Of a stretch of DNA of 64,000 bases, positions 56,526 to 61,444 are shown in pieces. The notes beneath the pieces were generated by a model. That model was not told the DNA's origin. It saw only the letters and a program-made list of their open reading frames with translations, and did no database searches. The stretch comes from Kineosporia sp. NBRC 101731 (GTDB taxonomy: Bacteria; Actinomycetota; Actinomycetes; Actinomycetales; Kineosporiaceae): contig NZ_BSTC01000002.1 of NCBI RefSeq assembly GCF_030269305.1, forward strand, positions 124,001 to 188,000, given 5' to 3'. The position numbers and the translations under genes are program-made. Positions within the stretch are counted from its first letter, which is position 1. Each line of letters begins with the position of its first letter.

Positions 56526-56759
56526 TCACCCCAGGAGATGGTCGAAGTCGCCGTCCTTGGCGCCCAGGATCAGCGCCTCGATCTCCGCGTGCGTGTAGAC
56601 CAGGGCAGGCCCCTGCGGGAACCGTGAGTTGCGCACGGCCACCTGCCCATCCTGCAGCGCCGCCATTTCGACGCAGTTGCCCTGAGAACCGCTGCGGGCT
56701 GACTTCTTCCACTCCGCGCTGATCAAGTCAGCCGGCATCCCGTTGTGAAAGTGCGACAT
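56526..56759 (-). CDS. DUF397 small protein
   Basis: 77 residues from ATG 56759 (GGAGGTCGAG before). The DUF397 core is WKKSARSGSQGNCVEMA and the tail FPQGPALVYTHAEIEALILG. DUF397 proteins are small partners of HTH-DUF5753 regulators in streptomycete whiJ/abaA-type groups and may be their ligands or toxin-like effectors. It lies downstream of the HTH gene on the same strand, with an operator-like region between. Confidence 0.93.
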   Translation of the reverse strand: MSHFHNGMPADLISAEWKKSARSGSQGNCVEMAALQDGQVAVRNSRFPQGPALVYTHAEIEALILGAKDGDFDHLLG

Positions 56760-56816
56760 CTCGACCTCCAAGTGCTGGGCAGACGACGGTGCTCAGGCTC
56801 GGACGCTGGCATGTCC

Positions 56817-56842
56817 TTCTGCACGTTCATTCTGCACGTGCA
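56817..56842. promoter_or_regulatory. Operator-like repeat upstream of the DUF397 gene
   Basis: TTCTGCACGT occurs twice with a 13-bp period (56817 and 56830). The second is part of the palindrome TGCACGTGCA (56833-56842). The same palindrome occurs twice before the ATPase gene, so the three sites likely bind one regulator, probably the HTH-DUF5753 protein. Confidence 0.65.
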
Positions 56843-56985
56843 TTTGCGCGAGCAGCCGGGCAGTTCAGGACTATACGGGCAGGTCGGGCCACTGGCCAGC
56901 CCGTTTTGCACACTGTGTGGCCAGTCAGCAACGCCCAGTTATCGATGGTTGTGCACGCAAGGGTGTTATCACCCCAAAGGCGCCC

Positions 56986-57843
56986 TCAGGCGTCGGCGAG
57001 CAGCTTCTGCAGCGTCCGGCGGGTCATGTCCGGCGGGAGACTGTCCACGGTGAGCCGGTCCATGTTCTGCGTGTACCGCTCCACATGGTCCGGCTTGTCG
57101 AGGTAATGAGCACTGGTCAGGTGCTCGACATAAACCGTGTCGGGCAGTTCCGGCTCGGGGAACCGCAGGATGGTGAAGGCACCGCCGTCCACCACATGCC
57201 CGCCGTAACGGAACGGCATGACCTGCAACGTCACGTTCGGCAACGTCATCATGTCGAGGAGGTGCTCCACCTGCTCGCGCATCACCTTCGCCCCACCCAC
57301 CGGACGGTGCAGGGCGGCCTCGTCGACCACGGTCCAGAAGTGTGACGGGCTGTTGCGGTGCAGGATCGCCTGGCGTTTCACGCGGAAGTTCACCCGGCGC
57401 TCGACCTCTGCCACCGTGGCATTGGGCGCGCCGGAACTGACCATCGCCCGGGCATAGGCCTCGGTCTGGAGAAGGCCCGGCAGAAACTGAATCTCGTAGC
57501 TACGGATCATGCTGGCGGCCTCTTCGAGGCCGACGAACGTCTCGAACCAGTTGGGCAGGACGTCGTCGTAGCTGTGCCACCAGCCCGGGGCATTCGCCTC
57601 ACGGGCGAGAGCCACCAGCATCTCGCGCTGGACCTCGTCCTCGACCCCGTAGAACTCCAGCAGGTCGACGATGTCGCGGTCCTTGAATCCGACGCGGCCG
57701 AGCTCAAGGCGGCTAATCTTGGATTCGGACGCGCGAATGCGATAGGCCGCGGCCTCACGGGTCAGATCTTTCGACTCTCGCAGACGTCGTAGCTGGGCGC
57801 CCACCAGAATGCGCCGGACCGTCGGTCCACCCGGCGTCGTCAC
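56986..57843 (-). CDS. HTH-DUF5753 regulator (whiJ-like)
   Basis: 285 residues. N-terminal XRE-type HTH (GAQLRRLRESKDLTREAAAY, ASESKISRLELG). C-terminal DUF5753 (GWWHSYDDVLPNWFETFVGL, IQFLPGLLQTEAYARAM, RVKRQAILHRNSPSHFWTVV). This is the regulator of the whiJ/abaA-type group that controls development in Streptomyces. It is flanked by a DUF397 gene and a divergent ATPase gene, and palindromes occur on both sides. Ligand is unknown. Confidence 0.95.
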   Translation of the reverse strand: MTTPGGPTVRRILVGAQLRRLRESKDLTREAAAYRIRASESKISRLELGRVGFKDRDIVDLLEFYGVEDEVQREMLVALAREANAPGWWHSYDDVLPNWFETFVGLEEAASMIRSYEIQFLPGLLQTEAYARAMVSSGAPNATVAEVERRVNFRVKRQAILHRNSPSHFWTVVDEAALHRPVGGAKVMREQVEHLLDMMTLPNVTLQVMPFRYGGHVVDGGAFTILRFPEPELPDTVYVEHLTSAHYLDKPDHVERYTQNMDRLTVDSLPPDMTRRTLQKLLADA

Positions 57844-58158
57844 AGTGTGTGCACCTCACCTGAAGTCAAAGAGGATCCGATCGCCCATGAGCGTGGCTCT
57901 TCGTGTTCAACCCGCCGCAGTGCCGCGACCTCGTGCCAGTGTGCCATCTCGGCGACCTCAAGTCCTAGCGGAAGCCGCTTTCAGTCAATTTCGGACTGCG
58001 CACACATTTACCCCTGATGCACGTGCATCCGCACGAACCAATCAGATACTCTCGAGATGCACGTGCATTTGGCGGTAGCGTTTGCACCGGCACAACGCGT
58101 GGCCCAGGGAGAACCGGTCCGGCGAAAGACCGAGGATCCCCGGGGTCGGGAACGAGGT
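57844..58158. promoter_or_regulatory. Divergent control region with two ATGCACGTGCAT palindromes
   Basis: Perfect 12-mers ATGCACGTGCAT at 58017-58028 and 58057-58068, 40 bp apart (about four helical turns). Between them GATACT (58045-58050) may be a -10 element, so the first site would cover the -35 area and the second the start point. No gene is supported inside. Upstream starts for the ATPase gene at 58057 would begin in a palindrome and are not preferred. Confidence 0.8.
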
Positions 58159-58767
58159 ATGGGGCCTGTCGTGGTGATTGCACAGCCGCAGTCCGCGGAC
58201 GTCGCGCCGTCCGCGAAGCAGAGCACTGCCAAGAACATCAAGCAGGGTGCTGCCGAGATCGACCTCGTCCTCGAGGCCGGGTCTGCCACCTGCATCCTTC
58301 CTGTGACCCTTCACGCCGTTCCCCAGGGCCGGGCCATGGTCCGGCGCGGCCTGACCCACCTGGGCGCCGAGTCCGTCGCTGACGACATCGCGCTGGCCGC
58401 CACCGAACTCGTCGCCAACGCCATCGAGCACGGCGTGCGCGACGCGGTCGGCCGGGTCGGCGACCCCGACGAACTCCAGCGCCGCCGCGCGGACGCCGTC
58501 CGGATCAGCCTGGTGAGCAGCGGCACCCACCTCGTGCTCTCGGTGACCGACCCGAGCCCCACGCCGCCCGTACGCCGCCCTCGCGACCCGTTCGCCGGTG
58601 GAGGCCGGGGCCTGCAGCTCATCGAGTCCCTGAGCCTCTGCTGGGGCTGGACCCTGCTCGACGAACAGGACGGGCAGCGGGCCCCCGGGAAATCGGTGTG
58701 GGCCATGTTCCCGAAGGTCGCCGTCGAGAAGCCCATCCCTCAGATCCGGATCCAGGGCGCGGCCTGA
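58159..58767 (+). CDS. GHKL ATPase, anti-sigma (RsbW)-like
   Basis: About 202 residues from ATG 58159. HATPase fold: N box ELVANAIEHGVRDAVG, G1-like VTDPSPTPPVRRP, G2 GGGRGLQLIESL and the late GKSVWAMFP. It lacks a kinase dimerisation domain, so it is the RsbW-like type found beside HTH-DUF5753 and DUF397 in streptomycetes. The start was placed after the operator region (GGGAACGAGG before the ATG); the upstream in-frame ATG at 58057 lies in the palindrome. A target sigma factor is not identified in the window. Confidence 0.86.
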   Translation: MGPVVVIAQPQSADVAPSAKQSTAKNIKQGAAEIDLVLEAGSATCILPVTLHAVPQGRAMVRRGLTHLGAESVADDIALAATELVANAIEHGVRDAVGRVGDPDELQRRRADAVRISLVSSGTHLVLSVTDPSPTPPVRRPRDPFAGGGRGLQLIESLSLCWGWTLLDEQDGQRAPGKSVWAMFPKVAVEKPIPQIRIQGAA

Positions 58768-58788: not shown

Positions 58789-59637
58789 TCAGACGATCTT
58801 GCCGACCCCGCTGAGGATACGGATGGGAAGGAAGTTCCCGTCGTTTCTCCATTGCGTGACGTCGACCAGCCCGGGCTCGATCAGCTCGGTGCCGTCGAAG
58901 AGCTGTTCCACCTGAGACCGTGACCGCACGACGAGCGGCGTGGGTGAGCTGTCGTAGACCTTCTCCAGCAGTTCGACCGAAGCCGGCTCCATGCCCTCGG
59001 AGCAGATCGCGGAGATCGCCAGGTAACTACCGGCCGGCAGCAGACGGCGGTACTGCTCGACCACCTTGATGGCCATCTCGCGCCGCACGAAGTGCAGCAC
59101 GGCGATGAACAGCAGCCCGACGGGCCGATCCTGGTCGAGATGGGCCTTCAGACGCGGGTCGTCGAGGATCCCGTGAGGCTGGCGCAGGTCATGGTCGAGC
59201 GCGAGAACACCGGGGCGGGGTGCGCGCAGAGCGCGGTTGTACGTCATGACGATCGGGTCGTTGTCGACGTACACCACCTTCGCGCCGGGCCGCATCTGCT
59301 GAGCCACCTCGTGCACATTCGGAGAGGTGGGGATGCCCGAGCCCAGATCGATGAACTGCTCGACCCCGAGCTCGGCCAGCGCGTTGACGGCACGGATCAG
59401 GAAGCCGCGGTTGGCCTGGGCGCAGGCCTGCAGATCGGGGATGACCCGGCCGACCTCGTGCACGGCCTGCCGGTCGATCGCGAAGTTGTCCTTGCCACCG
59501 AGCGCGTAGTCGTACATCCGCGCGGCGCTGGGCTTGGCGATGTCGATCTCCGGCGGGATCCACTCCTGCTCGGACGCGGTCCACGACCAGTCGACAGCGA
59601 TCTGCTCGGCCGGTGGCTCGTGCGGCTGGGTCGTCAT
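58789..59637 (-). CDS. SAM-dependent methyltransferase (DUF574)
   Basis: About 282 residues. The family signature is AKPSAARMYDYALGGKDNFA near the start, then QFIDLGSGIPTSPNVHEVAQ (SAM loop), VVYVDNDPIVMTYNRAL and LLFIAVLHFV. Substrate unknown; the family is expanded in actinobacteria. ATG 59637 with GGAG 10 bp upstream is preferred to GTG 59664. It is convergent with the ATPase gene. Confidence 0.92.
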   Translation of the reverse strand: MTTQPHEPPAEQIAVDWSWTASEQEWIPPEIDIAKPSAARMYDYALGGKDNFAIDRQAVHEVGRVIPDLQACAQANRGFLIRAVNALAELGVEQFIDLGSGIPTSPNVHEVAQQMRPGAKVVYVDNDPIVMTYNRALRAPRPGVLALDHDLRQPHGILDDPRLKAHLDQDRPVGLLFIAVLHFVRREMAIKVVEQYRRLLPAGSYLAISAICSEGMEPASVELLEKVYDSSPTPLVVRSRSQVEQLFDGTELIEPGLVDVTQWRNDGNFLPIRILSGVGKIV

Positions 59638-59800
59638 CGTCGGCGTACTCCAGACTCGATGCACCAGGTCCCGTTCACCCTATGCGTGGGAACACTTCGG
59701 TCTGAATGGTGGAAACCCCCGTCTATGGCATCTAAAGCCTCACTTCGACCGGGAGGAAGGCCGGTGAGCACAGGGAGTGCCCCGGTACTACCCTGGGCAG

Positions 59801-60082: not shown

Positions 60083-60106
60083 ATCGGTCATTGGGGACGA
60101 GGCCCC

Positions 60107-60690
60107 TCACCGGGCGCTACCGGCCAGCAAACCGTTGACGATGTAGCGGTTGAACGTCAGGGCCGGCGTGACCGGGACGATGATGGCCAGCACCCCGGCC
60201 TCGTCGACCAGGGTCACCGGCACGGTGTGCCGCCCCTGCAGGCCGGCGATCACGACGGTGAGTGGTTGCGTGGACAGATCGCTGGACAGCACCAGTGGCA
60301 AGAGGAACTGGGCCCAGGCGACAGGAACGTGATCAGCGCGGTGGAGATGATGCCGGGCCGGGCCATCGGCAGCACGATGTGCCGGACCACCTGCAGTCGG
60401 CTCGCCCCGTCCACGGTCGCGGCCTCCTCCAGGCTCACCGGCATGCCGGTGAAGTAGTTGTGCAGCACCCAGGTGGCCAGCGGCAGAAACCCCGAGACGT
60501 ACACGAACACGATGCCCGTGTAGGTGTTCACCAGCGAGAACTGGCTCATGATCCGGTAGATCGGGATCAGAGTGGCGTAGGAGGGCAACGCCATCGTGGC
60601 CAGGACCGTATAGAACAACAGGTTCCGGCCGGGAAACGTCATGCGGGCGAAGGCGTACGCGGCCAGGGTGGCCAGCACGACGGTCAGCGT
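60107..60690 (-). pseudogene. Broken carbohydrate ABC transporter permease (MalG-like)
   Basis: Remnant of an inner-membrane sugar permease. The 5' part is missing; the first recognisable residues (LTVVLATLAAYAFARMTFPG) lie right after 60690 on the minus strand and have no start. The EAA loop is present (YFTGMPVSLEEAATVDGASR). Near 60320 one base is lost, so the frame changes from ITFLS to AWAQFLLPLVLSSD, and the end FNRYIVNGLLAG is in another frame. No companion permease, ATPase or binding protein is nearby. Dead by two lesions. Confidence 0.85.
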
Positions 60691-61444
60691 GCGACGAGCG
60701 GACCGACTGAGCGCGATTCTCGACCGGGTGCGGGCCGACGGGAACGTCGATGTCACCGAACTGACCGCGAGCCTCGGGGTCTCCGGCGCCACCGTGCGCC
60801 GTGATCTGCAGTCACTGGCCGAGAACCGGATGCTGGTACGCACCCGCGGTGGAGCCATGTCGAACGACGTCGGCGACGAACTGCCCTCGCGCATCAAGGC
60901 TTCCCGCTTCCAGGCGGAGAAACGGCGGATCGGTGAGGCCGCGGCCGGGCTGGTCCACGACGGGGCTGTGGTCGGGCTGACCGGCGGATCGACCGCCCTC
61001 GAGGTCGCCCGCCACCTGGCCCGGCGACGCGGGGTCACGATCGTCACCAATGCCATCGACATCGCCGGCAAGCTGGCCGGTAACTCCGGGCTCCGCGTCG
61101 TCGTGATCGGCGGAATCCTGCGTTCCTCGCAGGAACTCGTTGGGCCGGCCGCCGAGACGATGCTGTCCGACTACCACCTCGACATCGCTTTCATCGGCGT
61201 CGACGGCCTCACACCCGACGAGGGCTGCACCACCTACGACGAGATGGAGGCCCAGACCGATCTGGCCTTCCTGCGCCGCTCCCGGCGCAGTGTCGTGATC
61301 GCCGACTCCTCCCAACTGGGCAAGGTCACCTTCGCCCGCATCAGCCCGCTGTCCGACGTCAGCGATGTGGTGACCGATACCGGCGCGGACGCCGAGCAGC
61401 TGGCCACGCCGGCGGCGACCGGGGCGAGGATCATCGCCGTCTGA
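60689..61444 (+). CDS. DeoR-family transcriptional regulator
   Basis: About 251 residues. HTH: RADRLSAILDRVRADGNVDV, TELTASLGVSGATVRRDLQS. Then the DeoR sugar-phosphate-binding domain (LTGGSTALEVARHL, NAIDIAGKLAGNSGLRVVVI, GGILRSSQELVGPAAETM, IADSSQLGKVTF). Such regulators sense sugar phosphates and often lie beside sugar transport genes. GTG 60689 is where the permease remnant ends on the other strand, so its original promoter was probably lost or rearranged. May be functional, but expression is uncertain. Confidence 0.85.
   Translation: MRRADRLSAILDRVRADGNVDVTELTASLGVSGATVRRDLQSLAENRMLVRTRGGAMSNDVGDELPSRIKASRFQAEKRRIGEAAAGLVHDGAVVGLTGGSTALEVARHLARRRGVTIVTNAIDIAGKLAGNSGLRVVVIGGILRSSQELVGPAAETMLSDYHLDIAFIGVDGLTPDEGCTTYDEMEAQTDLAFLRRSRRSVVIADSSQLGKVTFARISPLSDVSDVVTDTGADAEQLATPAATGARIIAV

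Follow-up and report, generated by a model that had tools for sequence, protein, structure and literature searches.

The window analysed here is the whole 64,000-nucleotide stretch of Kineosporia sp. NBRC 101731 (contig NZ_BSTC01000002.1, positions 124,001 to 188,000), and its coordinates are used throughout. It contains a three-gene group with copies of a short palindrome in its control regions, which are predicted to be operators of the regulator encoded between them. The regulator gene (56986..57843, minus strand) encodes a WhiJ-like protein of 285 amino acids with an N-terminal Xre-type helix-turn-helix (HTH) domain (HTH_31, PF13560, 1.1e-14, covering residues 15-73) and a C-terminal DUF5753 domain (PF19054, 8.3e-63), and its closest named relatives are those of Kineosporia mesophila (96% identical), K. 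babensis (89%) and K. rhizophila (87%). Adjacent to it are a gene for a DUF397 (BldB-like) protein (56526..56771, minus strand; PF04149, 7.7e-19; likely start, by reading, at the ATG at 56759) and a gene for a HATPase_c_2 (AbaA/anti-sigma-like) protein (58171..58767, plus strand; PF13581, 1.1e-10 on a longer open reading frame, ORF). With an N-terminal Xre-type HTH, a C-terminal DUF5753 and adjacent DUF397 and HATPase_c genes, the group belongs to the known WhiJ/BldB/AbaA kind. The ATPase gene (start at about 58171/58174) and the HTH gene (start at about 57843) are divergent, and the gap of about 215 bp between the DUF397 and HTH genes holds a separate DUF397 control region with its own site.

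The perfect palindrome ATGCACGTGCAT is found at 58017..58028 (site 1) and 58057..58068 (site 2), with a start-to-start distance of 40 bp, exactly where the original prediction had placed two such copies. It had described this pair as lying before the ATPase gene, which is true, but the pair stands between the divergent HTH and ATPase genes and belongs to both. Upstream of the DUF397 gene lies site 3 (56832..56843), with the sequence CTGCACGTGCAT and one mismatch (11/12), and the direct repeat that had been noticed beside it is a degenerate tandem copy, CTGCACGTTCAT, at 56819..56830, with two mismatches and 13 bp from site 3 (all four are given without strand). The claim of three 12-bp palindromes within 1.3 kb thus stands for two of them, whereas the third shares only the 10-bp core TGCACGTGCA.

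The genome (8,264,356 bases) contains two copies of the perfect 12-mer, both at the HTH/ATPase locus. The statement that the palindrome is restricted to this group, and the genome scan proposed to see whether it is common, therefore come out in favour of the perfect 12-mer (2/2 places) but not of the 10-bp core, which is not rare (24 places, against 31 for a reversed-pattern control). When up to one mismatch is allowed, the 12-mer is found at 11 places, 3 of them at the locus, and its reversed control at 10. The window has 6 matches to the 12-mer with up to two mismatches versus a mean of 1.77 in shuffled windows (2 of 100 shuffles reach 6), and 11 matches to the core with up to one mismatch versus a mean of 2.78 (0 of 100 reach 11). 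At the genome's own core density, three cores in 1262 bp have a Poisson expectation of 0.0037 and a P of about 8e-9, for a stretch that was picked because the cores occur there. Among 13 inspected cores (L001-L006, L010-L015, L022) of the 21 found elsewhere in the genome, 11 lie under a long ORF rich in GC at third codon positions (GC3), L001 lies under a shorter GC3-rich ORF and L015 under none; none of the three cores at the locus is overlaid by a long GC3-rich ORF. Five one-mismatch 12-mers of the genome (L018, L019, L024, L025 and L026) also lie outside long GC3-rich ORFs and are possible weak secondary sites; L025 sits about 1.1 kb beyond another DUF5753-DUF397 pair.

Conservation within Kineosporiaceae was followed in an alignment of nine genomes from four genera (own, G001-G006, G008 and G010), six of which are Kineosporia (own and G001-G005). 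In all nine, both site 1 and site 2 keep an intact 10-bp core; outside Kineosporia the flanks have diverged and the 12-mer is variable at its outermost bases. The two cores are 40 bp apart in the six Kineosporia, 39 in G008 and G010, and 38 in G006. In each of the six Kineosporia the perfect 12-mer occurs exactly twice per genome, always at the regulator locus. Elsewhere in the family it is found once in G006 and twice in G010, in all cases at the locus, and twice in G008, once off-locus. This off-locus ATGCACGTGCAT (C10:16434-16445, L096:1501-1512) precedes by about 170 bp a gene whose product, we assume, resembles an M1 aminopeptidase. Genome scans of G007, G009, G011 and G012 found no perfect 12-mer; in its place, TGCATATGCA or TGCACATGCA is found close to the regulator in these genomes. 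Upstream of DUF397, all six Kineosporia have CTGCACGYT followed by CTGCRCGTGCA; site 3 has a perfect core only in the own genome and G002, with CTGCGCGTGCA in the other four, and a perfect core precedes DUF397 in G006, G008 and G010.

When other whiJ-like groups are compared, as the original prediction had proposed, the site is found to follow the relatives of this regulator across families and to be missing from the paralogues in its own genome. A class-wide search of 394 genomes with the regulator gave matches in 130 of them at E 1e-85, and 89 loci (29 plus 60 picked among the matches listed) from 73 genomes, 25 genera and 7 families were compared. TGCACGTGCA lies within 1.5 kb of the regulator start, as far as sequence was available, in 73 of the 89 loci, representing 24 of the 25 genera and 6 of the 7 families, versus 18 loci for the next best of the 1024 palindromic 10-mers. 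At the other DUF5753 loci of the own genome it is present at none of 17 (scanned over about 1.2 kb upstream and 1.3 kb or more downstream). In a set of 99 loci (the 89 plus 9 of Kineosporiaceae and Planotetraspora; one locus with fewer than 300 bases upstream scored as a miss), 48 have the core no more than 300 bp upstream of the regulator. Where DUF397 was detected (59 loci), the core lies within the same distance upstream of DUF397 in 36 and of either the HTH gene or DUF397 in 53.

In all 12 Streptomyces-like loci (f37/g59) a core precedes DUF397 and another precedes the regulator. By reading of the alignment, DUF397 is preceded in most of them by a tandem array like TGCACGTGCATC, TGCCCATGCATC, TGCnnnTGAAC with a 12-bp pitch, and the arrays before DUF397 have three units. 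Across the 12 f37 genomes, the extended 15-base pattern TGCACGTGCATCTGC is matched perfectly at 21 places, all within the regulator locus by coordinates, and with one mismatch at 14 further places, 3 at the locus and 11 elsewhere. An open ATPase frame with a TTA codon is present at all 12 loci, inside the matched part in 11 and upstream only in L173 (start codons not being fixed). This pattern fits the SCO3421/SCO3423 cluster of S. coelicolor, for which passages of a review give TTA in 12 of 14 (PMC4255298). The genus g59 is presumably Streptomyces, and the locus presumably SCO3421.

The centre of the site varies together with the regulator. In an AlphaFold2 model of the protein, helices are found at residues 29-35 and 40-47, where the predicted local distance difference test (pLDDT) has block values of 80-91; outside the HTH the model is poor (mean pLDDT 68), and a profile search of solved structures gave no PDB relative at E 0.01. 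By analogy with Xre proteins, the second HTH helix (40-47) is the recognition helix. Residue 43 was counted in 104 clade entries with the helix pattern, leaving out L071 and L073 as repeats of other entries and L070, the sole entry of G002. Isoleucine occupies this position in 97 entries, 83 with the CG core, 0 with a variant only and 14 without a site. Methionine occupies it in 6, of which 5 have TGCATATGCA or TGCACATGCA and no CG core and 1 has no site, and the single Val43 entry has no site. The centre thus shifts from CG to TA/CA with the change from Ile43 to Met43, in two lineages: four of the five Met43 variant entries come from one Kineosporiaceae clade (three almost identical) and the fifth, L156, from another family, and the variant centre needs two changes on the tree, also when the starred branches alone are used. 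The genome of L156 has in addition an Ile43 paralogue with a CG core at -123. In the 16 of 17 own-genome paralogues where the helix could be read, it is quite different from that of this clade. Several Ile43 loci have a variant site alongside the CG core, so that the residue-43 rule covers the main site only.

Searches for further Met43 loci yielded little: with a Met43 query, the 394 genomes gave one match at E 1e-105, an Ile43 locus in the set, and a family search around G063 gave one genome and its Ile43 paralogue with a CG site. Nonomuraea gerenzanensis, with the helix SESKISR, has a CG core at -149 (named record checked afterwards). Two plasmid relatives, L205 (Streptomyces sp. KN37) and L206 (Streptomyces sp. 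NBC_00564), with the helices SHAKICR and SEAKISR between them, carry TGCAATTGCA at -498 and -509; at these loci, which also encode DUF397 and an S-adenosylmethionine-dependent methyltransferase, TGCAATTGCA replaces TGCACGTGCA about 100 bp upstream of DUF397. No TGCAnnTGCA was found at L207 and L209.

Given that the 12-mer is confined to the locus in Kineosporia, that the site is kept with the regulator clade, and that it covaries with the recognition helix, we consider it likely that the palindromes are operators of the HTH-DUF5753 (WhiJ-like) regulator encoded between them, through which it would control its own three-gene group. The binding site named in the original prediction is supported in this way, on comparative grounds. 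The palindrome would very probably be a private switch site of the regulator, and its direct, high-affinity regulon in Kineosporia looks limited to the locus.

The closest described parallel is the WhiJ9-bldB9-iosA locus of S. venezuelae, in which a WhiJ-like HTH regulator likewise has a DUF397 gene and a divergent target gene as neighbours. According to the passages on it in PMC10294661, WhiJ9 binds three direct repeats with the consensus CGXXCTCAAC beside its own gene and activates iosA from 113 bp upstream, and loss of whiJ9 raised its own transcript twofold. In both loci a repeated site in the divergent intergenic region is positioned for both genes, with binding predicted here and shown for WhiJ9. 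Unlike the direct repeats of WhiJ9, the site here is a 10-bp palindrome, TGCACGTGCA, present twice and once more before DUF397, there accompanied by a tandem repeat, and the divergent gene encodes an AbaA-like HATPase where the WhiJ9 locus has iosA. No perfect CGXXCTCAAC was found in 56700-58170; with one mismatch, only single matches occur at 56948 (minus), 57902 (plus) and 57953 (plus), without an array in 56772-56985 or 57844-58170, and the window as a whole has 103 such matches versus a shuffle mean of 76. The whiJ-like cluster SCO3421-SCO3423 of S. coelicolor also appears alike, judging from its description in part of PMC4255298, and the passages on it in PMC4255298 and PMC6767563 describe no operator. 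SCO3423 and SCO3424, which are possibly orthologous to genes of this group, stand in two lists of sigma-E targets given in sections of PMC10771440 and PMC6767563, which hints at a cell-envelope stress input. Scr1/Scr2 (SCO4441/4442) and the fourteen XRE-DUF397 pairs of S. coelicolor share the paired architecture, as outlined in parts of PMC6262351 and PMC10364602; the main text of neither contains "palindrom-", "direct repeat" or "binding site", and that of PMC6262351, the only one of the two searched for these, contains no "inverted repeat", "EMSA" (electrophoretic mobility shift assay) or "consensus". Among the publications listed as containing TGCACGTGCA, none is by its title on an actinomycete regulator, and an operator of this type is not described in the literature on DUF5753, DUF397, WhiJ and BldB/AbaA covered by a search that mostly did not extend to subscription journals.

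Candidate promoters were found beside the sites. A putative -10 box, TACTCT (58047..58052, plus strand), lies between sites 1 and 2 and points towards the ATPase gene. It comes from the alignment, in which a TAnnnT is read 3-4 bases before site 2 (TACTCT, TAGCAT, TAACCT or TATTGT), also in G008, G006 and G010; a consensus promoter scan of 56700-58300 did not recover it. The sole promoter-like match of that scan (1 versus a shuffle mean of 0.1) is TGGCCA-17-TATAGT (56870..56898, minus strand), a candidate promoter of DUF397, and TATAGT is present upstream of the DUF397 site in all six Kineosporia. Relative to the candidate DUF397 start, site 3 together with its tandem copy would span about +20 to +44.

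In the mechanism that we propose, a dimer of the regulator would bind TGCA-CG-TGCA through its recognition helix (residues 40-47, within SESKISRLE). Because sites are found in both control regions, a single regulator could govern three genes: the one that encodes it, the ATPase gene divergent from it, and the DUF397 gene, which would be transcribed separately. Sites 1 and 2 flanking the candidate -10 box and site 3 downstream of the candidate start would suit repression by occlusion or roadblock. The sign of control may nonetheless vary per promoter, given that WhiJ9 is an activator at iosA and an apparent repressor, by about twofold, at its own gene. By precedent, the DUF397 protein would be a likely modulator and the ATPase a likely output. 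There is genetic precedent for WhiJ-type activity under BldB or a DUF397 partner in parts of PMC10294661 and PMC4255298, the latter stating that in S. coelicolor the effect of losing the DUF397-type neighbour of whiJ is suppressed when whiJ itself is lost; this suppression, together with a BldB that shows no DNA binding, is why a modulator is envisaged.

Several observations weigh against the palindromes being operators of this regulator. The loci compared are common in descent and not independent, and 16 of the 89 have no TGCACGTGCA within the scanned stretch (1.5 kb of the regulator start). In four of these (L117, L129, L152 and L162) the sequence ends early on one side; L162 also contains an N-bearing core (at -1466), a core is found at -1541 in L142, and L156 has variants. 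The core is apparently truly absent from ten, eight in f36 (L118, L121, L123, L133, L135, L139, L140 and L193) and two in G420 (L171 and L194), and nine of the ten have the SKISR helix; eight of the ten are extra copies, with another copy in the same genome that has the site. Two distant plasmid relatives also lack the CG core, namely L204 (SHAKISR, about 58% identical), which has overlapping TGCAAGTGCA and TGCATCTGCA, and L208 (SKISR, about 43% identical), which has no TGCAnnTGCA, so that Ile43 alone does not predict a CG core in distant relatives. In the f37 genomes TGCACGTGCATCTGC with up to one mismatch is found at 35 places versus 32 for its reversed control, which limits the specificity to the perfect TGCACGTGCATCTGC. 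Both promoter positions are guesses. Finally, the regulator genes of G004 (L086/L095) and G005 (K. babensis; L073/L091/L094) have single-base frame breaks in different places with sites 1 and 2 intact, reflecting either a true loss or an assembly error. As separate observations, intervening DNA lies between DUF397 and HTH at f36 loci, and L208:836-3633, on a Streptomyces plasmid, encodes a DUF5753-type regulator next to ATP-binding and DUF397 proteins, near an annotated FxLD lanthipeptide and a lantibiotic dehydratase.

The sites could instead be bound by a different, trans-acting regulator of development or stress, with the HTH protein binding something else. That other inputs exist is suggested by the sigma-E lists mentioned above, since SCO3424 and SCO3423 possibly belong to the same group. 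We regard this explanation as unlikely: a separate regulator should have other targets, and none is marked by the perfect 12-mer in the six Kineosporia or by the perfect 15-base form in the 12 f37 genomes; moreover, the site is absent at the paralogous groups of the own genome and its centre covaries with the helix of the HTH protein. Less probable still is that the DNA is read by the DUF397 protein, by itself or together with the HTH protein, although proteins of the SCO4542 type were called very small DNA-binding proteins by Chandra and Chater (in a passage of PMC4255298) and the site precedes DUF397 in the 36 loci counted above. The covariation is with the helix of the HTH protein, the one that was compared, and BldB in S. 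venezuelae is reported in part of PMC10294661 to show no DNA binding in surface plasmon resonance or chromatin immunoprecipitation sequencing.

Two further explanations have very little probability. Site 2 might have been kept because the ATPase reading frame, or that of a short leader peptide, starts there (ATGCACGTGCAT read as Met-His-Val-His), the palindromes being coincidence or bias. Indeed, Met-His-Val-His-Leu can be read in all six Kineosporia, and the longest ATPase ORF begins at the ATG inside site 2 (58057). This start was rejected for the ATPase, given that the frame is broken and misses the ATPase in G001, G003, G004 and G005; the ATG is GTG, CTG or TTG in G008, G006 and G010, and a GTG start 112-115 bases past it is common to the six Kineosporia. 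With the frame broken in four and the downstream GTG kept, site 2 is taken as upstream DNA and not as coding. A reading frame would also leave site 1, site 3 and the cores in other families unexplained, and fails as a full explanation. Equally remote is a type II toxin-antitoxin pair with ordinary autoregulation of its operon by the antitoxin. XRE-DUF397 pairs were once proposed to be toxin-antitoxin systems, but the portion of PMC10364602 that recalls this also finds none of the fourteen pairs of S. coelicolor to behave as one, and DUF397 here appears to be preceded by a control region of its own, about 215 bp long, that holds a site and a candidate promoter.

If the palindromes are operators of the WhiJ-like regulator, they bear on the question of what WhiJ-like proteins target and how dozens of paralogues per cell avoid cross-talk. 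A 2013 review states that information on WhiJ targets was lacking (PMC4255298), and the WhiJ9 site is the only mapped WhiJ-like site that we found since then, in part of PMC10294661. A predicted operator of 10-12 bp for a multi-family clade makes the question of cross-talk testable with one oligonucleotide assay, and it comes with a predicted specificity residue and named target promoters. We regard the site as one of an expected kind, distinguished by comparative evidence of unusual strength, by its wide persistence and by the specificity hypothesis that comes with it. More tentatively, and somewhat against our own expectation, WhiJ-like groups might be insulated parallel switches in which each clade has a private operator almost only at its own locus. 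In this clade the TGCA halves would be constant and the centre would be read by residue 43 and its neighbours (CG for Ile, TA/CA for Met, AT for the plasmid helices SHAKICR/SEAKISR), by a code older than the split of the sampled families.

The idea of repeated sites at all DUF5753 groups in the own genome found no support in a scan for repeated 9-mers in 330 bp upstream. Only L039 of the 17 paralogues, with a GC-rich inverted repeat, is clearly above shuffles (1 of 200 shuffles had as many), and at the window locus itself 9 of 200 had as many.

The first codons read from the site 2 ATG (MHVHLAVAFAPA, 58057-58110) are alike in the six Kineosporia, in a frame that is not that of the ATPase in four of them, and a short leader peptide starting there is possible. 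Beyond the ATPase gene lies a Methyltransf_19 gene (Pfam; 58789..59664, minus strand), which is without a site and is regarded as a neighbour. It is convergent with the ATPase gene, about 20 bp from its end, and a relative was detected in 22 of the 99 loci. Further on, at 60100-60700, the broken end of what we take to be a sugar ATP-binding cassette (ABC) transporter permease overlaps the start of a DeoR-like regulator ORF, both on the minus strand.
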